From a virus, in the IMG/VR virus record IMGVR_UViG_3300025828_000129, positions 1-29,232 of that record: a DNA stretch of 29,232 bases. One strand, 5' to 3'. Shown in pieces: positions 1,895 through 25,771 of this stretch. The translations under genes were made by a program, and so were the position numbers. Below the pieces are notes generated by a model. That model had not been told where the DNA came from. It did not search any database and was given only the letters and a program-made list of their open reading frames with translations. Numbering within the stretch: position 1 is the first letter of the stretch; every line of letters begins with the position of its first letter.

Positions 1895-3523
1895 ATGCAG
1901 GATAGTATAAAAAAGTTTATAGAATTTTATAGTGGATTAAAAAAATCTTATGGTTATGCAACCATGGATAAGGCTGTTTTATCTGATGAAGGAAAATTAA
2001 AACCTGTTTATGGATGGACGGGATATCCAATAACGGACAATGATTATGTACAACATTTAGAAGGTAAAAGAGCTATTGGTATTCAACCATGTGATGAAGA
2101 AGGTAAGGCAAGATTCGGAGCAATTGATATTGATGATAAACAACATAGTTATAAAAATTTTCCTTTTCAAAAATATATAGATTTAATTATTAAATATAAT
2201 TTACCAGTCATACCTGTAAAATCTAAAAGCGGTGGACTTCATCTCTGTGTATTTTTTAAAGAAAAAGTATCTGCATTATTTATAAGAAATTTTTTTGACA
2301 AGATATTGATTACCCTTGGTCTTCCATCTAATATTGAAATATATCCAAAAGAAACAGAATTATCAACGAAATCAGACGGTACTCCAGATTATGGACATTT
2401 TATTAATTTACCGTACTTCAATAAAACAGAGAGAGTAGCATTAAATCCAAATGGAGGAACTTTTACCTTTGAACAATTTATTCAGGTAATAGAAGTAAAT
2501 TTACAAACAGAAGAATCTATTGAAGAGTTCAACAAAAAACATATCAAAACATTATTAACAGGAGGAAATGATGAATTTTCAGAAGGTCCTCCTTGTCTCC
2601 AAATCATGACTAAAAACAAATTAGTCGATGGTAGAGATAGATTTTTATATAACTACATGGTGTTTGCTAAGAAAGCATATCCGGACAATTGGGAAGAAAA
2701 GGTAAAAGAAGCTGCTAGAAATTATTTTGAATATGACAAAAATTGGGATGATAAAAAAGTAGAAGTTAAAATAAGATCATGGAGAAAAGAAACTAAAGGA
2801 CATACTTGCAATGAAGATCCAATAAAAGATTTTTGCATTAAATCAGAATGTATCAAAAGACAGTTTGGTATCTTATCGGATAAGAAAAAAAGATATCCTA
2901 AAGTATCTGGGCTACAGAAATATGATTATCCGGAACCAGAGTATACTTTTAATATCGAAAAGCCAGATGGATCTGGTGTGATTAGTTGTAGAGCTAAAAA
3001 CATAAGACAGATAACTAACCAATTAGAGATGAGAAATTTAATAGGTAATGCTGCAGGATTTGTACCTCCTATGGTTAAACAATGGGAATACCAAGAATCG
3101 GTAATTGATGTTTTATTTTCTACTAAAAATCCTGAAATAATTAAACCTCCTAAGAGCGCAACATTAGAAGGTATTTTAGAGCAAGAATTAATAGATTGGG
3201 TAAATGGACCAGAAGCTAAGAATGATGTTTCTTTTAAAAGCGGTGCAGTATTGTTTGAAAAAGAAGAAGTGTATTTTAAATTTACCCCTTTCTTTGACCA
3301 TATTAAGAATAGAGAATGGAAAGAGAATAGATTAAAGACAACCGAATTAATGACTAGATTGTTTGAAGCTAAACATGATGTATCAAAAAGATTTCCTAAA
3401 AAGGCGACTGATAAAAAATCTAATCCACCTATTGATGTAGTGGTTATGCCTAAAAAATATTTTATTAGAGAAGAATCAAATAAACAAGTAGTACCTATGC
3501 CAAGTAAAGAGGATATAATGTAA
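1895..3523 (+). CDS. Archaeo-eukaryotic primase (AEP) superfamily protein
   Basis: A 542-residue protein with the three AEP catalytic signatures in order: the acidic DID motif in GAIDIDD (residues 78-81), the S-x-H motif in SKSGGLHL (H116), and EIYPK (148-152) followed by HFINLPYF (168-175). A cysteine set downstream (C234 in GPPCLQ, then C305, C314 and C319) is placed like the Zn or Fe-S clusters of primase C-terminal domains. About 220 residues of unassigned sequence follow, with no Walker motifs, so this is a primase without a fused helicase. The family makes RNA or DNA primers, and some members also polymerise DNA. It is followed by an SF1 helicase through a TAATG overlap. The ATG at 1895 has a poor ribosome site and a hairpin 8 bases upstream. 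Confidence 0.85.
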   Translation: MQDSIKKFIEFYSGLKKSYGYATMDKAVLSDEGKLKPVYGWTGYPITDNDYVQHLEGKRAIGIQPCDEEGKARFGAIDIDDKQHSYKNFPFQKYIDLIIKYNLPVIPVKSKSGGLHLCVFFKEKVSALFIRNFFDKILITLGLPSNIEIYPKETELSTKSDGTPDYGHFINLPYFNKTERVALNPNGGTFTFEQFIQVIEVNLQTEESIEEFNKKHIKTLLTGGNDEFSEGPPCLQIMTKNKLVDGRDRFLYNYMVFAKKAYPDNWEEKVKEAARNYFEYDKNWDDKKVEVKIRSWRKETKGHTCNEDPIKDFCIKSECIKRQFGILSDKKKRYPKVSGLQKYDYPEPEYTFNIEKPDGSGVISCRAKNIRQITNQLEMRNLIGNAAGFVPPMVKQWEYQESVIDVLFSTKNPEIIKPPKSATLEGILEQELIDWVNGPEAKNDVSFKSGAVLFEKEEVYFKFTPFFDHIKNREWKENRLKTTELMTRLFEAKHDVSKRFPKKATDKKSNPPIDVVVMPKKYFIREESNKQVVPMPSKEDIM

Positions 3524-11161: not shown

Positions 11162-11284
11162 ATGAATAGGTTTCATAAACCTAAACGTATAGAAGATAAG
11201 CGATATAAAGAACAATTAAAACAAATGGATAAAGATATTCAACAAGTAAGAACTATACAAAAGGAGATATATGAAACTAAATAA
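11162..11284 (+). CDS. Possible small charged protein (40 residues)
   Basis: This frame runs from ATG 11162 to TAA 11282-11284 between two good genes and overlaps the exonuclease start by 14 bases. It is almost entirely charged (HKPKRIEDKRYKEQLKQMDK) and would be one helix. There is no strong ribosome site. It fills an otherwise unexplained 113-base gap in a tight operon, which is the main argument for it. Confidence 0.35.
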   Translation: MNRFHKPKRIEDKRYKEQLKQMDKDIQQVRTIQKEIYETK

Positions 11285-11996
11285 ATTATATGAGTATCCC
11301 ACATCCAGCAGAGCCTTGTACGATGGAGAAAGATTATATGATATTGGACAAGAAAAATTACCGAGTGTAACTACTATTTTGAGTGCTACTCAACCTCCTG
11401 AAAAACAAGCTGCATTAGCCGCGTGGAAGGCTAGAGTAGGCGAGGAGCAAGCAACACGGATCAAGGACCAAGCAGCAGCACGTGGGACCACTATGCACCA
11501 TATTATTGAAAGTTATTTATTAGGACAGAATCATTTAGATTTAACTGACATGGGTCAAAATGCTCATACCATGGCAGATCAAATTATTAAAAATGGTTTA
11601 CAAGATAGGTTAAAAGAATTTTGGGGATTAGAGGTGACCTTATATTATCCTGGTCTATATGCCGGTGCTACCGATGTGGTTGGTATTTATGATGGAGAAC
11701 AAAGTATTGTGGATTTTAAACAGAGTAATAAACCAAAAAGACGTGAATGGATTGGAGATTATAAGCTTCAACTTGCCGCATATGCATTAGCGCATAACGA
11801 AGTATATAATACTAATATAACCAAAGGAGTTAATTTAATTTGCACTAAAGATAACTTGTATCAAGAATTTATTTTTGATGGAGAGGACTTTAGAAAAGCT
11901 AAATACGAATGGTTACGAAGAGTAGATCAATACTATAATGAAAGGAATAAAAATGAATCTATTTCACTTACACAAGGACCCAAAAATAATAGCTGA
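11271..11996 (+). CDS. PD-(D/E)XK exonuclease (RecB/Cas4-like phage Exo)
   Basis: A 241-residue nuclease preceded by AAGGAG. Motifs of the RecB-like group are present: LPSVTTIL (30-37), RGTTMHHIIE (71-80), the acidic GATDVV (D135), DFK (148-150) and QLAAYA (Q167 to Y171). These residues make up the D-(x)n-(D/E)-x-K metal site and the downstream Q-x3-Y of YqaJ/Cas4-type exonucleases. It probably resects dsDNA ends for phage recombination or degrades host DNA for nucleotides. The region around 11450-11480 has a few CAAG-type heptamers that do not disturb the frame. The 3' end overlaps the next gene in another frame. Confidence 0.82.
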   Translation: MKLNKLYEYPTSSRALYDGERLYDIGQEKLPSVTTILSATQPPEKQAALAAWKARVGEEQATRIKDQAAARGTTMHHIIESYLLGQNHLDLTDMGQNAHTMADQIIKNGLQDRLKEFWGLEVTLYYPGLYAGATDVVGIYDGEQSIVDFKQSNKPKRREWIGDYKLQLAAYALAHNEVYNTNITKGVNLICTKDNLYQEFIFDGEDFRKAKYEWLRRVDQYYNERNKNESISLTQGPKNNS

Positions 11997-12426
11997 ATAC
12001 CATTGTGATAAACATGTGGTAAAAATGTGTCTAGAAACTGCACAAATGTTATGCAGCGCATATAAAAAACATTATTCTGACGATGGTGATTTATATAAAA
12101 TAGCACATCCAAAACACCCAATGACTTTATGGGTAGGATATGCCCATATGAATTTTAAATTTGCATTAGATGTATTAAAGGCTTTAGGAGATGAGTATAC
12201 CTACAGATACAATAAAATACATGCCTCTATGCGTATTTATGACCTATTAACTACTAAATATACTAGGTGGCATTCCTGGGATGGTTGTTTCACAACACCA
12301 CCTCAATGTATGCCAGATGAATATAAACATGAAGATTATATTATAGCATACAGGAATTACTACAAAGGTGCTAAAAAGGATTTTGCTGTATACACCAATA
12401 GAGAAATACCGGATTTTATGTCATGA
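11953..12426 (+). CDS. Conserved phage protein with DKHVVKM motif
   Basis: A 157-residue protein. The ATG at 11953 is chosen over an in-frame ATG at 11938 because GAAAGGA lies at a normal distance upstream of it. The sequence begins MNLFHLHKDPKIIAEYHCDKH and continues VVKMCLETAQMLCSAY, then has HPKHPMTLWV and MPDEYK near the end. This pattern (two histidine- and cysteine-bearing motifs followed by MPDEYK) recurs in cyanophages and pelagiphages, to my memory as an unnamed family. The conserved His and Cys could bind metal. It overlaps the exonuclease gene by 44 bases and the next by ATGA. Confidence 0.7.
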   Translation: MNLFHLHKDPKIIAEYHCDKHVVKMCLETAQMLCSAYKKHYSDDGDLYKIAHPKHPMTLWVGYAHMNFKFALDVLKALGDEYTYRYNKIHASMRIYDLLTTKYTRWHSWDGCFTTPPQCMPDEYKHEDYIIAYRNYYKGAKKDFAVYTNREIPDFMS

Positions 12427-12605
12427 ATAGTGGTTATATAGATAAAAAAATGAAGGAATTAGATAGCATCAAAAAAATGATTGATGTTACATCTGGAGAA
12501 GTACGTAAAAGTTGGAAAGATAAATGGTACTCTTTGGCAAAGAATATAGGTAAGAGCATTGAGATGATGGATACTATAAAAAAGAGAGGTCATAAAAATC
12601 AATGA
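12423..12605 (+). CDS. Small charged helical protein (60 residues)
   Basis: This gene starts in an ATGA overlap with the previous one and is the last of the long operon before the non-coding region at 12606. The sequence is lysine-rich and helical (KKMKELDSIKKMIDVT, WKDKWYSLAKNIGKSIEMMD). No family is recognised. Confidence 0.5.
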   Translation: MNSGYIDKKMKELDSIKKMIDVTSGEVRKSWKDKWYSLAKNIGKSIEMMDTIKKRGHKNQ

Positions 12606-12613
12606 CTTATTCC

Positions 12614-12807
12614 ATTGTAGTCTATATAGTACTTTTTAAAAGGGTAAAAATATTTTTTGAAAAAATTTTTTTGTCAAAAAAGTCTCTACAATCCCTACAA
12701 TCACAAAAAATTGTTATATACCAATGGTTTTAGAGCAAAAAATTGTAGGGAAGCATTTACTACAATCCCGACAATCGTTACAGGCTACCATTCTAGACTC
12801 TACAATC
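12614..12807. repeat. CTACAAT iterons, candidate replication origin or control region
   Basis: Seven copies of CTACAAT(C) or its complement lie in 194 bases: ATTGTAG at 12614 and 12742, CTACAATC at 12686, 12695, 12760 and 12800, and CGACAATC at 12769. Two pairs sit at an exact 9-base period (12686/12695 and 12760/12769). The surrounding DNA is very AT-rich with long A and T tracts. The whole non-coding stretch 12606-12969 otherwise has only a weak frame at 12724-12963, which I reject. Iterons in AT-rich DNA are typical of initiator-bound origins, but TACAAT also resembles a -10 box, so a promoter array is an alternative. Confidence 0.55.
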
Positions 12808-12953
12808 GAAAATAGTAATCATAAATTTACTAATTTTATATCAAATGCTCTAGAATTGTTATTTTATGCTAAAATAGGAAAAATTTCCTCTGCGCTAGCA
12901 AAACCATTTTTATGTTTTATAAAAACCATTTATGGTTTTAAAAAGTACTATAT
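12624..12953. repeat. 18-bp perfect inverted repeat enclosing the iteron region
   Basis: The 18 bases at 12624-12641 are the exact reverse complement of 12936-12953, with 294 bases between (outer arm starts ATATAGTAC, inner part TTTTTAAAA). The pair brackets the iterons. A small 8-bp hairpin (AAAACCAT-TT-ATGGTTTT, 12922-12939) abuts the right arm. No transposase, and no obvious target duplication, is present, so a mobile-element reading is weak; a long-range stem or origin boundary is preferred. Confidence 0.6.
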
Positions 12954-12969
12954 GGATATATAGGTAGGT

Positions 12970-13254
12970 ATGCCAAAAAAGAAATCTAAATATAAATCAC
13001 TGGTTATAAATAAAAAGCGATATTATTTTTATAAAATAGTTTGGTTAGATATAGTTGGAGATTCCGGCCACGCTGACGTTAATGAGTTTATGAAGTTAAA
13101 TCCAGTTGAAATGGTAAGTTACGGATATATTTTTAGTAAGGATAATCAATGTGTTAGGACATTTGCGTCTTATGATACCACTTCAGAGTCATTTTCTGAT
13201 AGAAATTGTTTCCCAAATGGGTGTATAAAGCAGCTTCAAAAAATAAACATCTAA
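12970..13254 (+). CDS. Conserved small phage protein (94 residues)
   Basis: A 94-residue protein that begins with a lysine-rich stretch (PKKKSKYKSLVINKKR), then YKIVWLDIVGDSGHADVNEF and a beta-rich C-terminal part. The WLDIV-x-x-SG pattern followed by a turn and a hydrophobic strand ending in FPNGCIKQL recurs in small phage proteins that I recall without function. It is the first gene after the iteron region, with a weak GGTAGG ribosome site. The next gene follows after 13 bases. Confidence 0.6.
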   Translation: MPKKKSKYKSLVINKKRYYFYKIVWLDIVGDSGHADVNEFMKLNPVEMVSYGYIFSKDNQCVRTFASYDTTSESFSDRNCFPNGCIKQLQKINI

Positions 13255-13267
13255 CCAAGGAGACAAC

Positions 13268-13426
13268 ATGCCTAAGAAAAAGAAAACAGAAACTGTAGAA
13301 GATATCTTAGATAGGATTATGGAAGATATAGATCTTATCAGAGAAAAGTGTGTGTGTAATGGTGATGAGGATTATTCATCGGAGGATGATGATGATGATT
13401 CTTTTGATGACGAAGACCAAGAGTAG
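13268..13426 (+). CDS. Small protein with very acidic C-terminus
   Basis: A 52-residue protein with AAGGAG upstream of the ATG at 13268. It starts PKKKKTETVEDIL, has CVC at residues 28-30 and ends in an almost uninterrupted run of Asp, Glu and Ser. The acidic tail is encoded by GAT/GAG repeats. The last 55 bases lie opposite the serine-rich tail of the minus-strand terminase small subunit, so one simple-sequence tract codes in both directions. The tail could be a DNA mimic or a protein-binding tail; this is inference. Confidence 0.55.
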   Translation: MPKKKKTETVEDILDRIMEDIDLIREKCVCNGDEDYSSEDDDDDSFDDEDQE

Positions 13427-14031
13427 GTATCAGACTCTATTAAGGTTGAATCGATTACAGTTGGCTCTACTGTTTTTGGCAGTGTCCTGTTTGTCTTTGG
13501 TTTTGCTTTTTTAATTTCAGATTTAAATTCTTCAACTTCAACACCTTCAAGGATGGGCGAATACTGATCTAAAACTTCAGCTATTCGCTTATCCAATTCT
13601 TCTTCGGATAAATCATCTAATTTACCAGTTCTAATTATTTTCTGTTCTATGTATAATCCTGCGGCCTTTCCTCTTGCTACTTCAGCATTGATAGCAGCAC
13701 TCCATGCACCTTTTAATCTAGCCTCATCTCTAAGTTTAGCTAATTCAACAATATGTTTTCCAAAATCAACATCATATTTTTTCTGATACTCAGATCTTAA
13801 TTCTCCAATATATTGAGCTACCAAAGGATACATTTTTGGATTTTTAAGCTCACTTGCTGTGATACGTGCTCTATCTTCTGCATATCCTGCTTCAACAGCG
13901 CATTCATATGCAGTCTTTCTACCTTCATTGGTAACAAGTAATTGAGCAAATTTTCTTTGCATTTCTGTAAGTCTTTTAGGTAATCCCATAACTTGACAAA
14001 TAACGTAACAATGAGTATATGTCAATTGCAT
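13372..14031 (-). CDS. Terminase small subunit (TerS)-like protein
   Basis: A 219-residue protein on the minus strand. Residues 19-60 match the Terminase_2 helix-turn-helix pattern: RLTEMQRKFAQLLVTNEGRK, then AYECAVEAGYAEDRARITASEL. A helical middle (about 75-170) should form the oligomerisation core, and the C-terminus is low in complexity and serine-rich. TerS recognises the packaging site and activates TerL. The ATG at 14031 is supported by AGGAG 8 bases upstream; an ATG at codon 15 lacks one. It is unusual in being antisense to, and about 5 kb from, terL. Its 3' end overlaps an acidic-protein gene by 55 bases. Confidence 0.82.
   Translation of the reverse strand: MQLTYTHCYVICQVMGLPKRLTEMQRKFAQLLVTNEGRKTAYECAVEAGYAEDRARITASELKNPKMYPLVAQYIGELRSEYQKKYDVDFGKHIVELAKLRDEARLKGAWSAAINAEVARGKAAGLYIEQKIIRTGKLDDLSEEELDKRIAEVLDQYSPILEGVEVEEFKSEIKKAKPKTNRTLPKTVEPTVIDSTLIESDTYSWSSSSKESSSSSSDE
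13993..14021 (+). promoter_or_regulatory. Sigma70-like promoter inside the terS start region
   Basis: TTGACA (13993-13998), a 17-base spacer and TATATG (14016-14021) form a good plus-strand promoter that would serve the gene at 14110. The complement also reads TTGACA at about 14021-14026, so the two -35 boxes face each other (TTGAC...GTCAA); the minus-strand -10 (TTATTT) is weaker. Confidence 0.45.
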
Positions 14032-14710: not shown

Positions 14711-14966
14711 GCCTGGTGCTTGGAACTTTTATTTTAAAAAAAGAAAAACTACCTCTGGTAGGTCTCACCGAATCGGATTTATGAGAAGGTCTATCCACCA
14801 GAGGAATCAAAAGGTCTCTCATTGAGACTGACGCTAGTGCGCCATTACTTTTATTTGAATACATAATAGCATTAGGTCCAGGCAACGCAATGCGCGAAAC
14901 GTCGCAGCCTGGCGCTTGAAGCCTGGAGCTTGGTGCTTGAAGCTTGTTGCTTGTTACTTGAGTCAT
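14697..14966 (-). CDS. Possible protein with heptamer-derived N-terminus
   Basis: An 89-residue frame. ATG at 14966 has AAGG 5 bases upstream; a TTG five codons earlier is an alternative. The first 20 residues (NKLQAPSSRLQAPGC) are the translation of the heptamer array. The middle part (ALPGPNAIMYSNKSNGALAS, then RDLLIPLVDRPSHKSDSV) is not repetitive and has ordinary composition, which argues for real coding. The end again follows a repeat unit. The palindrome TGCGACAATTTGTCGCA lies 8 bases upstream of the start. If not coding, the region 14711-15135 is a repeat-rich spacer. I recognise no family with confidence. Confidence 0.4.
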   Translation of the reverse strand: MTQVTSNKLQAPSSRLQAPGCDVSRIALPGPNAIMYSNKSNGALASVSMRDLLIPLVDRPSHKSDSVRPTRGSFSFFKIKVPSTRLKDF

Positions 14967-15033
14967 TTTGCCTTGCGACAATTTGTCGCATGCTTGGAGC
15001 TTGTTGCTTGCTGCTTGGATCCTGAAGCTTGTA
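14907..15033. repeat. Two GCTTGNN heptamer arrays flanking a palindrome
   Basis: The first array (14907-14962) has eight units such as GCTTGAA, GCCTGGA, GCTTGGT and GCTTGTT; the second (14992-15033) has six such as GCTTGGA, GCTTGTT and GCTTGTA. The palindrome TGCGACAATTTGTCGCA separates them. Units are degenerate mostly at positions 6-7 and at position 3 (T or C). Spacing is exactly 7 bases throughout. Confidence 0.75.
14974..14990. promoter_or_regulatory. 17-bp perfect palindrome TGCGACAATTTGTCGCA
   Basis: TGCGACAA-T-TTGTCGCA is a perfect 8-1-8 palindrome just upstream of a minus-strand frame. Related sites lie at 15932, 16273, 18064 and 18491, each near a gene start. This suggests a common dimeric regulator. 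Confidence 0.6.
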
Positions 15034-15135
15034 GCTCATCAAAAAATTTTTGAGTCTTCTGGACATAGGACCGGGGAAGGGTGCTGTGATCTCTTAGGAA
15101 CCAGTGGCTTAAATCATTATGATTGATTTTTTTCA

Positions 15136-15735
15136 TTAGTGTTTACCATAAGCTATATTTTTAATGGATTTGTCCCAACATGCTCGGCAGCTGCCGCATT
15201 TATTGTCTTGCTTAGGTGCTGGGCAAGTTGCGCCTTCATTTACCACAGTTGATGTCCAAGGCCAAAAAGTTGGCGCTTCACCATCGACTTTGGTCCCTGA
15301 CATTCTTATAATAAGATTATCAGGGACCATGCTAGGAGGCACAAGTTTTAAAATCTGAGCTTCACGCGTCGGCATCCAATGCTGAACGCTTGGCGTTAAC
15401 CTACAGACCTTAAAAATTTTTAATAGATGTTTTACGCTCTGAATGTCTCCGGAGTCATGCCATCTAAAAAACTTTGATTTTTTTGAATTGATTTGAGCTG
15501 CCATGGCCTGAACCCAAAGCGGGTGACGTATAGCTTCAAGGCGCTTGTATTGTGCTGCTTGCACTACTTTAAACACATAACAGCCTTTAAGAGCGTAGCA
15601 GCCATGGCACACTGTGCCTGGGACCTTGGCCAATTTAGAACCAGTTTTGCATTCTTTAGCGGGTAAACCATAGGTGAAGCCCGGCATTTTGGAAGGCTTA
15701 GAAAGGCTTCCTGTTATTTCTTTATATGCTTTCAT
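15136..15735 (-). CDS. GP88-family (gene product 88) phage protein
   Basis: A 199-residue protein. It begins ITGSLSKPSKMPGFTYGLPA (residues 7-26), followed by a cysteine set C29, C43, C46 and C52 (GTVCHGCYALKGC), the motif RWHDSGDI (91-98), WMPTRE (120-125) and a C-terminal cluster C171, C180, C183 and C186. This order fits the phage GP88 family, named from mycobacteriophage, whose biochemical function is unknown; the cysteines and the barrel-like motif order suggest an Fe-S or zinc protein. It is translated after a small minus-strand gene with 10 bases between. GC content is slightly above neighbouring genes, and a few heptamer-like words occur in the coding sequence. Confidence 0.75.
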   Translation of the reverse strand: MKAYKEITGSLSKPSKMPGFTYGLPAKECKTGSKLAKVPGTVCHGCYALKGCYVFKVVQAAQYKRLEAIRHPLWVQAMAAQINSKKSKFFRWHDSGDIQSVKHLLKIFKVCRLTPSVQHWMPTREAQILKLVPPSMVPDNLIIRMSGTKVDGEAPTFWPWTSTVVNEGATCPAPKQDNKCGSCRACWDKSIKNIAYGKH

Positions 15736-15745
15736 AGTATCCTAT

Positions 15746-15928
15746 TTAATCATTTATAATGGATTTGTCAAGCCAGTCATGATCAAATTCTGGCTTGCCG
15801 CTTGTAGTAATTCCAAGATCCTTGGAGCTTGAAGCTCTCAGCTTGTTGCTTGTAGCTTGAAGCTTTTTATTTTTATTAGTTTGCTTTTTAAGCAAAATTT
15901 TTAAATCTTTAAAACTATAAACTTTCAT
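15746..15928 (-). CDS. Small protein with an in-frame heptamer insertion
   Basis: A 60-residue frame reading MKVYSFKDLKILLKK at the start and PEFDHDWLDKSIIND at the end. Between them, KKLQATSNKLRASSSKDL is the translation of the heptamer array 15820-15865. The ends look like an ordinary small protein and the middle like inserted repeat, so the gene may tolerate repeat growth as a linker. A half-site GCGACAAA lies just before the ATG. It is probably the first or second gene of the minus-strand GP88 unit. Confidence 0.5.
   Translation of the reverse strand: MKVYSFKDLKILLKKQTNKNKKLQATSNKLRASSSKDLGITTSGKPEFDHDWLDKSIIND
15820..15865. repeat. GCTTGNN heptamer array inside a small gene
   Basis: About six 7-base units in register: CCTTGGA-like, GCTTGAA, GCTCTCA, GCTTGTT, GCTTGTA and GCTTGAA, then GCTT. 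The array reads through the small minus-strand gene in frame. A shorter run (GCTTGAA, GCTTGTG) occurs at 15938-15951. Confidence 0.7.
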
Positions 15929-16124
15929 ATGTTTGTCGCTTGAAGCTTGTGGCCTTTACCCCTGAAGCTAGATAAAGACCACAGCCCATGTTTCTTTTCT
16001 CAATATTCGCTGACCAAACGAATATAATGGATCCGAAGTCACGTATGTGTATTTCAGATCTAACTTGGATCCAGCGGTTAAGCGGAACATATCTCATGCC
16101 AAACAGGCGGGCTATGCCCAGCAC
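15915..16124 (-). CDS. Possible 69-residue protein over a structured region
   Basis: A frame with GTG at 16124 (or ATG at 16097) reading RYVPLNRWIQVRSEIHIRDF and then GSIIFVWSANIEKRNMGCG, ending in heptamer-derived residues. Its composition is protein-like and it overlaps the next minus-strand gene by 14 bases, but the DNA also has several strong inverted repeats, so a non-coding RNA or control element is an equal option. No ribosome site is obvious. Confidence 0.35.
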   Translation of the reverse strand: MLGIARLFGMRYVPLNRWIQVRSEIHIRDFGSIIFVWSANIEKRNMGCGLYLASGVKATSFKRQTYESL

Positions 16125-17367: not shown

Positions 17368-17691
17368 ATGAGTGAATATAATTGGTGTCATGGGCCCGAG
17401 TGTCATACTTATTCTACACAAGATAGAATAAGAGGTGTAAAAGGAAACAAAGTTTTAAAGACTAGGAAAGTAAAAAGAAGTCAATATGTTAGTCCTCAAT
17501 CATCTTGGAATTGGTTTTGTAGTCACAGTTGCCAACAAGATTTTTGGAATAAGTATGGCGCACAGATAAGGGCTATTGCACCGAGGAACGAGGCACTTGA
17601 AACAAAGGTCAATGTGACGACTGAAACTTATCAGAATTGGAGAGGCGAGGACTATCAGGCCAAAACCATTACAAAGGTAGAGCAACAATAG
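17368..17691 (+). CDS. Zinc-finger-like protein (107 residues)
   Basis: A 107-residue protein with four cysteines in two pairs: CHGPEC (residues 7-12) and CSHSC (51-55). The second pair sits in FCSHSCQQDFW, as in zinc fingers that carry a C-x-x-C or C-x3-C knuckle with a following aromatic helix. The basic linker KGNKVLKTRKVKRSQ may contact nucleic acid. The gene has a strong GAAAGGA site. Immediately at its stop codon four perfect tandem heptamers begin, then a strong terminator at 17737. Confidence 0.6.
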   Translation: MSEYNWCHGPECHTYSTQDRIRGVKGNKVLKTRKVKRSQYVSPQSSWNWFCSHSCQQDFWNKYGAQIRAIAPRNEALETKVNVTTETYQNWRGEDYQAKTITKVEQQ

Positions 17692-17718
17692 CTTGGTGCT
17701 TGGTGCTTGGTGCTTGTA
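17691..17718. repeat. Four tandem GCTTGNN heptamers starting at a stop codon
   Basis: GCTTGGT, GCTTGGT, GCTTGGT and GCTTGTA run without gaps, the first base being the last base of the TAG stop of the gene at 17368. This is the cleanest heptamer array in the window. Confidence 0.8.
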
Positions 17719-17736
17719 TATTGTATCAAGGAACAT

Positions 17737-17767
17737 GGGGTGCAACCGAAAGTTGCACCCCTTTTTT
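17737..17767 (+). terminator. Strong rho-independent terminator
   Basis: A perfect 10-bp stem GGGGTGCAAC/GTTGCACCCC with loop CGAAA is followed by six Ts. It ends the plus-strand unit 16356-17691 just before the convergent minus-strand gene stops at 17770. Confidence 0.85.
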
Positions 17768-17769
17768 AT

Positions 17770-18015
17770 TTATTTTACTACTCCCTTTGGAGTGGCAATT
17801 AATTGTTTAGTTTCCAAGTCATAGATAGCCCAATCGCCATTCGCTCTTCTATACTTGCCACCTTGGTCAAGGTCTAAATAGATAATGTGGTCTTCTTCGA
17901 GTACGCACTTATCTTTGAATGTACCTAATCTAAAAATAGTCTTTTCATGTTTCTTTGCAAAAAAAGAAATTAAAAAAGTTCTATTTTTAATTAGGTTTAT
18001 TATTTTATCTTTCAT
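17770..18015 (-). CDS. Hypothetical protein (81 residues)
   Basis: An 81-residue minus-strand protein: a basic N-terminal helix (KDKIINLIKNRTFLISFFAK) followed by a beta-rich part ending in GDWAIYDLETKQLIATPKGV. The strand spacing of YLDLDQGGKYRRANGDWAIYDLETK suggests a small beta barrel. There is no known family. The stop is next to the plus-strand terminator. A possible promoter (TTGACC-N16-TAATAG) precedes it at about 18045-18020 on the minus strand; the ribosome site is weak. Confidence 0.5.
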   Translation of the reverse strand: MKDKIINLIKNRTFLISFFAKKHEKTIFRLGTFKDKCVLEEDHIIYLDLDQGGKYRRANGDWAIYDLETKQLIATPKGVVK

Positions 18016-18063
18016 ATCTTACTATTAACATATAATCCTATATGGTCAATAATAAAAAACACC

Positions 18064-18080
18064 TGCGACAATTTGTCAAA
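18064..18080. promoter_or_regulatory. Imperfect copy of the TGCGACAATTTGTCGCA palindrome
   Basis: TGCGACAATTTGTCAAA matches 15 of 17 positions of the perfect site at 14974. It lies in the divergent gap between genes 18015 (minus) and 18141 (plus), about 60 bases before the latter's start. Confidence 0.5.
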
Positions 18081-18140
18081 TTTCTTTTTATTTTATTTTA
18101 ATTATAGTGATTTTATAACTTAACAACGAAAGGAATAAAT

Positions 18141-18308
18141 ATGTGGTACTTAATTAGAACAGTTTTTTTTATGTGGTTATTAGTATCATCAATAATATTA
18201 ACTACTTATGATTACTTTCCTAATGAATTAGGTATAATCTTATCAGTAGGTTTTTTCTTAATGACTGCTGTGTCATTCGCTGATATAATGATTAATGATA
18301 GGAGTTAA
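18141..18308 (+). CDS. Small membrane protein with two transmembrane helices
   Basis: A 55-residue protein with CGAAAGGA before the ATG. Two hydrophobic helices (about 8-24 and 31-48) flank a short polar loop with the pattern TYDYFPNELG. The topology and size resemble small class II holin-like or membrane-stress phage proteins, but it is far from the endolysin and cannot be assigned. The next gene's ribosome site (GGAG) lies over its stop. Confidence 0.5.
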   Translation: MWYLIRTVFFMWLLVSSIILTTYDYFPNELGIILSVGFFLMTAVSFADIMINDRS

Positions 18309-18995: not shown

Positions 18996-19075
18996 GGGTC
19001 CCATAAGGGTCCCATTTCCTAAAAAATTTTATAAAAAATTTTTACAAAAAATTTAGGGTCCCATACGGGTCCCAT
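18996..19075. repeat. Two phased pairs of GGGTCCCAT upstream of terL
   Basis: Copies start at 18996, 19007, 19056 and 19067. Members of a pair are 11 bases apart (one DNA turn) and the pairs are 60 bases apart, separated by A/T-rich DNA. A fifth copy lies inside terL at 19293 and a variant GGTACCAT at about 19120. Position and phasing suggest protein binding: TerS packaging site, or operator of the late genes. Confidence 0.7.
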
Positions 19076-19136
19076 TTTCAATAGATTTCTATATAAAAAT
19101 ATGTTATAAAAATTTTAGGTACCATAATTAAACATT

Positions 19137-23917: not shown

Positions 23918-24307
23918 ATGTTTCCATGGAGTTTAATAGGCTCTGGAGTCAAGGCCGCAGTAGAAATTTATTCTAACAAGAAAAAATCTGAAATCGCTAT
24001 GTCAGAAGCAGCATTATTACATGCTGAAAAAATGAAACGTGGTGAGATTGAATATACAGGTAAAATCTTTGAATCACAAAAAGGGGATTGGAAGGACGAA
24101 TTCATACTCATTGTTCTATCATCACCATTATTTTTATTAGCATATTCTGTATTTGCAGAAGATGAAAAAATTTCTCAGAAGCTAGACTTGTATTTTGAGA
24201 AATTACAAGGTATGCCTTGGTGGGTGACTGGACTTTGGATTTCCGTAGTGGCTGCCGTGTATGGAATCAAAGCAACAGATATCATTAATACAAAAAAAGG
24301 AAAATAA
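23918..24307 (+). CDS. Probable holin (GTA 3TM-like)
   Basis: A 129-residue protein with an amphipathic N-terminal segment (LIGSGVKAAVEIYSNKKK), a charged helix (23-60) and two clear transmembrane helices at about 62-79 (FILIVLSSPLFLLAYSVF) and 101-117 (WWVTGLWISVVAAVYGI). The layout and the KGDWKDEF stretch before the first helix match the 3TM holin group found in gene transfer agents and marine phages. A holin would release the M15 endolysin encoded 16 kb upstream. The separation of the two is unusual but known in phages. Confidence 0.65.
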   Translation: MFPWSLIGSGVKAAVEIYSNKKKSEIAMSEAALLHAEKMKRGEIEYTGKIFESQKGDWKDEFILIVLSSPLFLLAYSVFAEDEKISQKLDLYFEKLQGMPWWVTGLWISVVAAVYGIKATDIINTKKGK

Positions 24308-24309
24308 AT

Positions 24310-24417
24310 ATGTTAAAAAAAATAAAAAATAAACTTTGTAAATTAGTTTGTAAAATATTCGGAATTACACCATGTATATGTAGTCATGAATGCAACTGTA
24401 AAAAGGAGAACAAATAA
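24310..24417 (+). CDS. Small Cys-rich protein (35 residues)
   Basis: A 35-residue frame with six cysteines (KLCKLVCKIF, CICSHECNC) and a basic N-terminus. It starts 2 bases after the holin stop and ends in a TAATG overlap with the next gene, which supports it despite its size. Metal binding or a disulfide-rich peptide are possible. Confidence 0.4.
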   Translation: MLKKIKNKLCKLVCKIFGITPCICSHECNCKKENK

Positions 24418-24566
24418 TGAAAAAGAAAATGATCAAAGAATATGGTGGCAAAGAAAAATATAAATCTAAAGCCGCTATGAAAAAACATGAGAAAAAAGAA
24501 TCTAAAAAAATGGAAGCCCGTGAAAAATATAAAATGGGTGGAAAAGCCAAAGGGAGAAAGTGCTAA
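24417..24566 (+). CDS. Small Lys/Glu-rich protein (49 residues)
   Basis: This gene starts and ends in TAATG overlaps. It reads MKKKMIKEYGGKEKYKSKAA, then alternating Lys and Glu (MKKHEKKESKKMEAREKYKM) and a Gly/Lys/Arg tail. It is one of several very basic small proteins in this block. Confidence 0.5.
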   Translation: MKKKMIKEYGGKEKYKSKAAMKKHEKKESKKMEAREKYKMGGKAKGRKC

Positions 24567-24709
24567 TGGCTACAAAAAAGAAACCTGGTCTTTGGGCCAA
24601 TATCAATAGAAGAAAAAAACTTGGTATTTCAAGACCTAAATCTAAATCAACCATTTCAGCTAAAGCATACGCTAACATGAAGAAAGGTTTTCCTAAAAAG
24701 AAAAAATGA
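24566..24709 (+). CDS. Small basic protein with KPGLWANI motif (47 residues)
   Basis: A 47-residue protein in a TAATG overlap that reads ATKKKPGLWANINRRKKLGI and ends in KKGFPKKKK. The KPGLWANI start is a conserved feature of small proteins in marine phage head modules, by memory. It ends in an ATGA overlap with the DUF6321-like gene. Confidence 0.55.
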   Translation: MATKKKPGLWANINRRKKLGISRPKSKSTISAKAYANMKKGFPKKKK

Positions 24710-25113
24710 TAGCTAAAAAAGGATATGGTAGAGCATTTTTATCTAGAGGATCAAAAGCTATTTTTGATGAATTAGAATCAAAAGTTCCTTTTCCCAAAGG
24801 ACAAAAAGTTCCTACCAAATTAGCTAAAGGAGGAAAGGCAACTCCTGCGTGGCAAAGAAAAGAAGGTAAATCAGAATCCGGTGGATTAAATAAAAAAGGT
24901 ATTGCATCTTATAGAAGAGCAAATCCTGGTTCTAAATTATCTATGGCTGTTACTACCAAGCCATCTAAATTAAAAAAAGGTTCTAAAGCAGCAAATAGAC
25001 GTAAGTCTTTTTGTGCTAGAATGAGTGGTATGAAAAAAAGATTAACTTCTGCTAAAACGGCAAGGGATCCTAATAGCAGAATAAACAAATCCCTAAGAAA
25101 GTGGAATTGTTAA
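24706..25113 (+). CDS. DUF6321-like basic phage protein
   Basis: A 135-residue basic protein with the pattern AWQRKEGKSESGGLNKKGIASYRRANPGS (key residues W49, K52-E53-G54, G59-G60-L61-N62 and G65), RRKSFCARM and SLRKWNC near the end. I recall this order (W-R-K-E-G-K, then G-G-L-N, then S-F-x-A-R-M) from the DUF6321 family of cyanophages and other marine phages, which are thought to be virion-associated. No enzymatic motif is seen. It overlaps the preceding gene by ATGA, and the next ATG follows its stop directly. Confidence 0.65.
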   Translation: MIAKKGYGRAFLSRGSKAIFDELESKVPFPKGQKVPTKLAKGGKATPAWQRKEGKSESGGLNKKGIASYRRANPGSKLSMAVTTKPSKLKKGSKAANRRKSFCARMSGMKKRLTSAKTARDPNSRINKSLRKWNC

Positions 25114-25362
25114 ATGGATGTAACCGAGTTTCTTTCGAAACTAAGAAAGATATTAAGAGATAACTACCAACAAATAGGAGAGAACTTTCTCGCTGGTGGT
25201 GTTGACAATATGGAAAAATACAAGTATTTGTTAGGACAGGCACATGCCTACCAATACGTAGATCAGGAAATCTCTAACCTGCTAAAACCAAAGGAGCAAA
25301 AAAATGACGGAGCAAAAGCAGACGACAATGTCGTCAAGTTCGACGGAAGTACCAAAGATTAA
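25114..25362 (+). CDS. Conserved head-module small protein (82 residues)
   Basis: An 82-residue protein with an N-terminal helix (VTEFLSKLRKILRDNYQQIG), DNMEKYKYLLGQAHAYQYVD and a polar C-terminus. Short proteins of this shape with YLLGQ-x-x-A lie between small basic genes and the co-chaperonin in related phages by memory. The last 59 bases overlap the co-chaperonin gene in another frame. Confidence 0.6.
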   Translation: MDVTEFLSKLRKILRDNYQQIGENFLAGGVDNMEKYKYLLGQAHAYQYVDQEISNLLKPKEQKNDGAKADDNVVKFDGSTKD

Positions 25363-25771
25363 ATTAGCACTTCAAGAAAAATACGAACAACAAAAAGAAG
25401 AAGAAATAAATAAGCATAACGCTATTAAAGAAAAAGAATCTTCTAAACTTCCACAACCAACTGGTTGGAGAATGTTAGTTTTACCTTTTAAAGCAAAACC
25501 AAAAACAAAAGGTGGAATTTATTTATCAGACGAATCCATAGAAAGATCTCAAGTTGCATCTACTTGTGGTCTTGTTCTTGCTATGGGACCTCATTGTTAT
25601 GACAAGGAAAAATTTCCTGAAGGTCCTTGGTGCAAGAAGGGGGATTGGGTTATCTTTGCAAGATATGCAGGAAGCCGAATTCTTATAGATGGCGGGGAGG
25701 TTAGACTTCTGAATGATGATGAAGTCTTAGCAACGGTGAAAGACCCCGAAGATATCTTTCATCAATTTTAA
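25304..25771 (+). CDS. GroES-like co-chaperonin (Cpn10 family)
   Basis: A 155-residue protein with the Cpn10 fold pattern: GWRMLVLP (about 54-61), KTKGGIYLSDESIERS for the mobile-loop region (70-85), GLVLAMGP (89-96), KKGDWVIFARYAGSRI (111-126) and LLNDDEVLATVKD at the end. The first 45 residues are an unusual polar extension. Phage GroES relatives, such as T4 gp31, redirect host GroEL to fold the large capsid protein. The ATG at 25304 has AAAGGAG 8 bases upstream and begins 59 bases inside the preceding gene, an uncommonly long out-of-frame overlap. Confidence 0.85.
   Translation: MTEQKQTTMSSSSTEVPKIKLALQEKYEQQKEEEINKHNAIKEKESSKLPQPTGWRMLVLPFKAKPKTKGGIYLSDESIERSQVASTCGLVLAMGPHCYDKEKFPEGPWCKKGDWVIFARYAGSRILIDGGEVRLLNDDEVLATVKDPEDIFHQF

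Follow-up and report, generated by a model that had tools for sequence, protein, structure and literature searches.

The stretch of viral DNA analysed here, referred to as the window, is a 29-kb fragment (29,232 nucleotides) held in IMG/VR as a "linear" record. It comes from an abundant ocean phage affiliated with the HTVC027P/HTVC023P-type pelagiphages, the DNA polymerase and a 94-aa protein being nearest to those of 023Pt_psg01, HTVC027P, HTVC023P and others; members of this group are lytic SAR11 podoviruses with genomes of roughly 60 kb. Genes for a primase, a helicase, PolA and an exonuclease are followed, at the end of the replication operon, by a gap at positions 12606-12969, which is flanked by a 60-aa open reading frame (12423-12605) and the conserved 94-aa gene (phrog_25889; plus strand, 12970-13254). 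Convergent with the latter lies the gene for the terminase small subunit (TerS; minus strand, 13372-14031), and these two opposite-strand neighbours were found together in 151 loci. A 79-aa frame within the gap (12724-12963) did not turn up as a common gene among the gaps listed for relatives, many of which hold no frame of at least 45 aa, and no known RNA family was found in the window.

The window's primase (1895-3520) gave a match to PF22548, the AEP domain found in TOTE conflict systems. Relatives fall into two groups by their primase and helicase, with about 40-57% or about 25-31% identity to the window's primase, and in one contig (G008, which carries locus L243) a single internal TAG splits the primase frame at positions 24052-25576, reflecting either a broken gene or an assembly error.

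Repeats and a conserved element in the intergenic gap

An earlier note on this DNA had described seven CTACAAT-type iterons, including two pairs with a 9-bp period, and an 18-bp perfect inverted repeat in the 364-bp gap, and both features hold up. Six of the iterons are exact CTACAAT copies and one is a variant. Exact CTACAATC occurs in the 29-kb window only at 12686-12693, 12695-12702, 12760-12767 and 12800-12807, all on the plus strand; the variant CGACAATC, with one mismatch, lies at 12769-12776 (plus strand), and exact CTACAAT copies on the minus strand occupy 12614-12620 and 12742-12748. The copies at 12686 and 12695, and those at 12760 and 12769, are spaced at exactly 9 bp. In 2000 Markov shuffles of this stretch no 7-mer reached six copies (maximum five), and by the same measure of 7-mer copies the gap is the most repetitive such stretch of the window. 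Several short direct repeats with helical spacing thus lie together at one locus, as is characteristic of iteron-type replication origins.

Running through the middle of the array is an element, AAATTGTTATATACCAATGGTT in the window (plus strand, 12708-12729), whose family form TWAGTCAnTAATACCAACGnTT was recovered in 68 of 86 loci, compared with 3.8 in shuffles, and is enclosed by the outermost iterons in 49 of the 55 loci where this could be tested. In several relatives part of this element is similar to the IHF consensus WATCAANNNNTTR, which variants such as AATCAATGACTTA fit. A second motif at the locus, TGGCAnnAATGTGGCA, is not universal.

The arms of the inverted repeat, at 12624-12641 (left, plus strand, ATATAGTACTTTTTAAAA) and 12936-12953 (right, minus strand), match at 18 of 18 positions across 294 bp, a length reached in none of 1000 shuffles (maximum 15). 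No copy of the exact left-arm sequence was found in the other viral contigs searched. Outer repeats of other sequence recur nonetheless: when the right edge was compared with the left part within and between loci (at least 15 nt, one mismatch allowed), complementarity was found in 14.3% of loci versus 1.5% of swapped pairs, some of the within-locus pairs being iteron-based. The right arm contains TACTAT (12946-12951), which could serve the 94-aa gene as a -10 box, and outward-facing ACTATA/TATAGT elements occur at the edges of the locus in about a dozen relatives as well as in the window. These elements, which are possibly promoters, are enriched on both sides (right edge, 10 loci versus 1.4 expected; left edge, 15 versus 5.4).

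With respect to base composition, the description of the region as AT-rich is correct for the window, where its GC content is 26.6% against 34.0% overall, but this richness is not exceptional for such genomes: across relatives the AT content of the region ranks on average at the 72nd percentile within its own genome. A tract of A/T runs (12634-12682; 86% AT over 49 bp) precedes the first iteron pair and is DUE-like by position only, being statistically unexceptional in relatives.

Replacement of the iteron word among relatives

The sequences compared were viral metagenome contigs together with a few isolates. Upstream of the 94-aa gene and beside TerS, a strong repeat array was present in 64 of 86 non-redundant loci, with 36 distinct 7-mers serving as the repeat word; words were called automatically, weaker calls are uncertain, and the other 22 loci fell below the score used. 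The word of the window, CTACAAT, is shared with L247, L250 and L252. Other lineages carry GTTACA (L286, L298 and L309-L311), TTCTACA (L136, L274, L278), GCGACCC (L099, L117, L119), TGTGCCA (L107, L112, L161 and psg01), AGGTGACC (L126, L275), CACCACAA (L263), GCCGACCC (L131) or CCGACAC (L134), and L141 has TGACCAC at places corresponding to those of TGTGCCA in L107. Nearly all copies in one phage share one word, which means that the copies are rewritten together.

Within this diversity the layout is constant. An 8-bp word is present 6-10 times per array, in either orientation and with helical spacing, and its copies flank the central element, and the distances between same-strand iterons peak at 8-11 bp, with a second peak at 20 bp. 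In each genome with a strong array the repeat word is restricted to the iteron locus, the top 7-mer having 4-8 copies in the 450 bp against a background prediction of at most 0.16; G002/G023, HTVC027P and HTVC023P gave weak or no clear calls in this test.

The search of relatives therefore has a divided outcome for the repeats as the earlier note described them: the sequence of the word is not conserved, but dozens of lineages retain the architecture of the array and its position. This conservation provides good support for a cis-acting iteron site that is read by a protein and present once per genome. As the same layout carries a word rewritten between lineages, the locus is probably read by a fast-evolving protein. 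A fixed layout with a fully exchangeable word also amounts to a series of natural experiments on protein-DNA coevolution, and makes the locus a concrete target for finding the reader protein.

Candidate readers of the iterons

In a search for this reader, similarity of iterons was compared with similarity of proteins using Mantel tests, which model the tree incompletely. Among three flanking genes in 42 loci, the exonuclease alone showed a significant partial association (partial Mantel 0.254 with the other two genes controlled for; 0 of 499 permutations); the 94-aa gene scored -0.035 and TerS 0.071 (112 of 499 permutations). The exonuclease also ranked first of 24 gene families across 19 genomes; DNA polymerase came second, which implies that part of the exonuclease signal is general relatedness. 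The association is located in residues 1-56, encoded by the part of the gene most distant from the iterons, and individual residue columns, which are confounded by phylogeny, were not relied on. In exonuclease pairs at least 80% identical the word was common to about 13 of 16, the top exceptions listed involving L141, whose exonuclease is 91-92% identical to those of L107 and L112 and whose iterons differ from theirs. The exonucleases of psg01 and L112, which share TGTGCCA, are 72% identical. L304 and L311 carry different words, with exonucleases 45% and TerS proteins 89% identical.

Other candidates were rejected. TerS showed no significant covariation, and its helix-turn-helix region is nearly constant while the iterons change; the 94-aa gene likewise did not covary and came last of the 24 families. 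A small gene of 69-80 aa between the exonuclease and the iterons tracks the word partly in the L099 group and is absent elsewhere, and the primase, helicase and polymerase gave weaker associations than the exonuclease in the 24-family comparison of 19 genomes. The genes that separate the exonuclease from the iterons do not follow the word; this finding, together with the N-terminal position of the signal, disfavours linkage as the cause of that signal in the main clade.

The exonuclease (plus strand, 11271-11996; phrog_298) scores above the cutoff for PF12705 and has a profile match to human MGME1 (E about 1e-20). It carries the PD-(D/E)XK motifs, the His of motif Ia and the QhXXY motif IV that mark MGME1/RecB-type nucleases, with H76, D135, D148, K150, Q167 and Y171 invariant, and its AlphaFold model (mean pLDDT 93.5) aligns in Foldseek with PDB 5zyv (MGME1) at a TM-score of 0.70 on the query. 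Fold and motifs are thus those of MGME1 and RecB-type nucleases; the phage protein differs from MGME1 in about 30 N-terminal residues outside the aligned core, which hold part of the covariation. MGME1 is not known to be sequence-specific, nor is any other member of the nuclease family. It is a RecB-type nuclease that strongly prefers single-stranded DNA; flaps are cleaved as well, and the enzyme is involved in replicating mitochondrial DNA (PMC6237815). Enzymes of this kind are widespread in phages (938 phage records, among them T4-like cyanophages, Vi01-like phages and jumbo phages), a distribution that is interesting with regard to where the mitochondrial enzyme came from.

HTVC023P and its relatives offer a comparison in which the genes are unlinked, with the iteron locus directly upstream of TerS and the exonuclease about 13 kb away. 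The words in this arrangement are ACTAGGAAA with minor variants, or CTAGGAGT, and in another clade GGTGTCCC or GGTGTATC. Here the exonuclease does not covary with the word. The exonuclease of G058 is about 64% identical to those of the GGTGTCCC clade and 47-52% to those of other ACTAGGAAA phages, yet its iterons are of the CTAGGAAA/ACTAGGAAA type; its iteron region is identical to that of L450 at 364 of 407 positions, and the TerS proteins of these two are identical. The exonuclease is thus not a general reader, and the unlinked clade favours the view that its signal arose simply from linkage. Two possibilities follow: part of the main-clade signal is due to linkage, or the two clades have different readers.

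In the window's clade the adjacent MGME1-like exonuclease is still the best candidate for a partner that would read or process the iterons, through its N-terminal 56 residues, a weak step in the argument given the failure in the HTVC023P clade. That a member of the MGME1 family doubles as a sequence-specific site binder, with nuclease and iterons diversifying as matched pairs, strikes us as doubtful; if true, such pairs would give each lineage a private specificity of replication (or packaging).

Function of the locus

We consider a replication origin to be the best reading of the iteron locus, with the chances for and against it about evenly balanced on sequence evidence. It is favoured because the site is single-copy and iteron-based, ends the replication operon and, in the window, adjoins A/T-run DNA. 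The origin proposed in the earlier note is partly supported. A cis-acting iteron site is upheld; the composition around it is a weaker point, AT content being unexceptional across relatives, as described above. The anticipated switch in GC skew is missing at the locus, the skew simply dipping where genes are on the minus strand and being uninformative about the start of replication. At such an origin a phage protein would bind the iterons as a multimer and bend or melt the A/T-run tract around the central element, perhaps with the help of a host IHF/HU-type protein, after which the phage's primase, helicase and PolA could be loaded.

Similar arrangements are found in known systems. Iteron plasmid origins are built of direct repeats with helical spacing and species-specific words, features repeated at the phage locus; unlike them, this locus belongs to a lytic phage in which no Rep-type initiator was found. 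In lambdoid phages the initiator binds as a multimer, and origin types differ between phages together with O. The lambdoid origin (O protein, 4-6 iterons, AT-rich tract) likewise has short clustered iterons beside A/T-rich DNA, whereas here the word is about 8 bp long, occurs in both orientations outside any gene and shows far more turnover. The lambda iterons are about 19 bp long and form one cluster inside the O gene, and those of lambda and the Stx phages are almost identical (PMC4488673, PMC7466680). Full-text searches of an open-access library found no paper naming iterons in pelagiphages.

The concerted replacement of words implies a coevolving binder under diversifying selection, and this exchange points to such selection being strong at a checkpoint of replication or packaging. 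Ectopic copies of the cognate origin block infection by lambda (PMC4488673), which suggests that the driver may be decoys of the origin, satellites or related phages infecting the same cell, with a change of word allowing escape from them.

The main rival is a packaging initiation site, pac- or cosB-like, at which repeats around a bending IHF-like element recruit the terminase; we regard this as a tentative alternative, clearly less probable than an origin. P1 pac and lambda cosB have short repeats on either side of an IHF-type element near terminase genes, a layout which is also that of the iteron locus with its partly IHF-like element flanked by iterons. Moreover, TerS accompanies the locus whichever of the two gene orders is present: terS is never more than about 1.2 kb away, and in the HTVC023P arrangement the locus immediately precedes it. 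Environmental genomes of the group have been closed via terminal overlaps (PMC9599517), which fits circular permutation or terminal repeats. Repeats bound by TerS should nevertheless covary with it, and the hypervariable repeats at this locus, in distinction to P1 pac and lambda cosB, do not; the near-constancy of the TerS helix-turn-helix region is also at odds with this role. Different iterons accompany TerS proteins that are 85-93% identical (L126/L136, L089/L311), while psg01 and L112, which have a word in common, have TerS proteins only 35% identical.

It is unlikely that the locus is a regulatory region in which the iterons are operators bound by a transcription factor of the phage, with outward promoters at the arms of the inverted repeat under its control. 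The enrichment of ACTATA/TATAGT elements at both edges would agree with this, and HTVC027P, which is obligately lytic, without lysogeny genes, and has no RNA polymerase of its own, uses that of the host (PMC12753301), so regulators are to be expected. One such locus per genome would, however, control a single 94-aa gene in the main clade, 6-10 spread sites with a conserved element are unusual for an operator, and the iterons of relatives are not -10 boxes. More improbable again is a site, distinct from both origin and pac, for self-recognition or processing by the MGME1-like exonuclease, for instance a signal that stops the enzyme or protects the DNA: the best covariation in the main clade, its N-terminal location and the action of MGME1 on single-stranded and flap DNA during mitochondrial replication (PMC6237815) speak for it, but it fails where the gene is unlinked, and it would call for a sequence specificity that is not known in this nuclease family.

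The promoter array named in the earlier note as the main alternative to an origin, TACAAT resembling the sigma-70 -10 box TATAAT and supplying one weak promoter match, is refuted by orthologous arrays reading GCGACCC, TGTGCCA, GGTGTCCC and others, far from a -10 consensus, and promoter-like matches number 10 compared with 12.5 in shuffles; we give it practically no weight. An attP with integrase arm sites, which the core-and-arm-like layout might recall, is just as implausible given the lytic lifestyle of HTVC027P and the lack of a recognised integrase among the window genes scanned.

Repeats of other kinds were noted in these genomes. The window has many copies of a 14/21-bp CTTGAAGCTTG-type repeat at 14896-15953, which give rise to spurious KLQASS-like frames on the minus strand, and HTVC027P has a similar stretch at 17670-18219. 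Two direct 59-nt copies starting GGGTCCCATANGGGTCCCAT, 60 bp apart (18996-19114), sit about 20-140 bp upstream of the gene for the terminase large subunit. In HTVC023P, a near-perfect tandem repeat of about 39 bp (GCAAATCTTGAGAATACATACCGAAAATTTTTT) is present three times upstream of the 94-aa-like gene (L324, positions 12372-12566), separate from the iteron locus of that phage.
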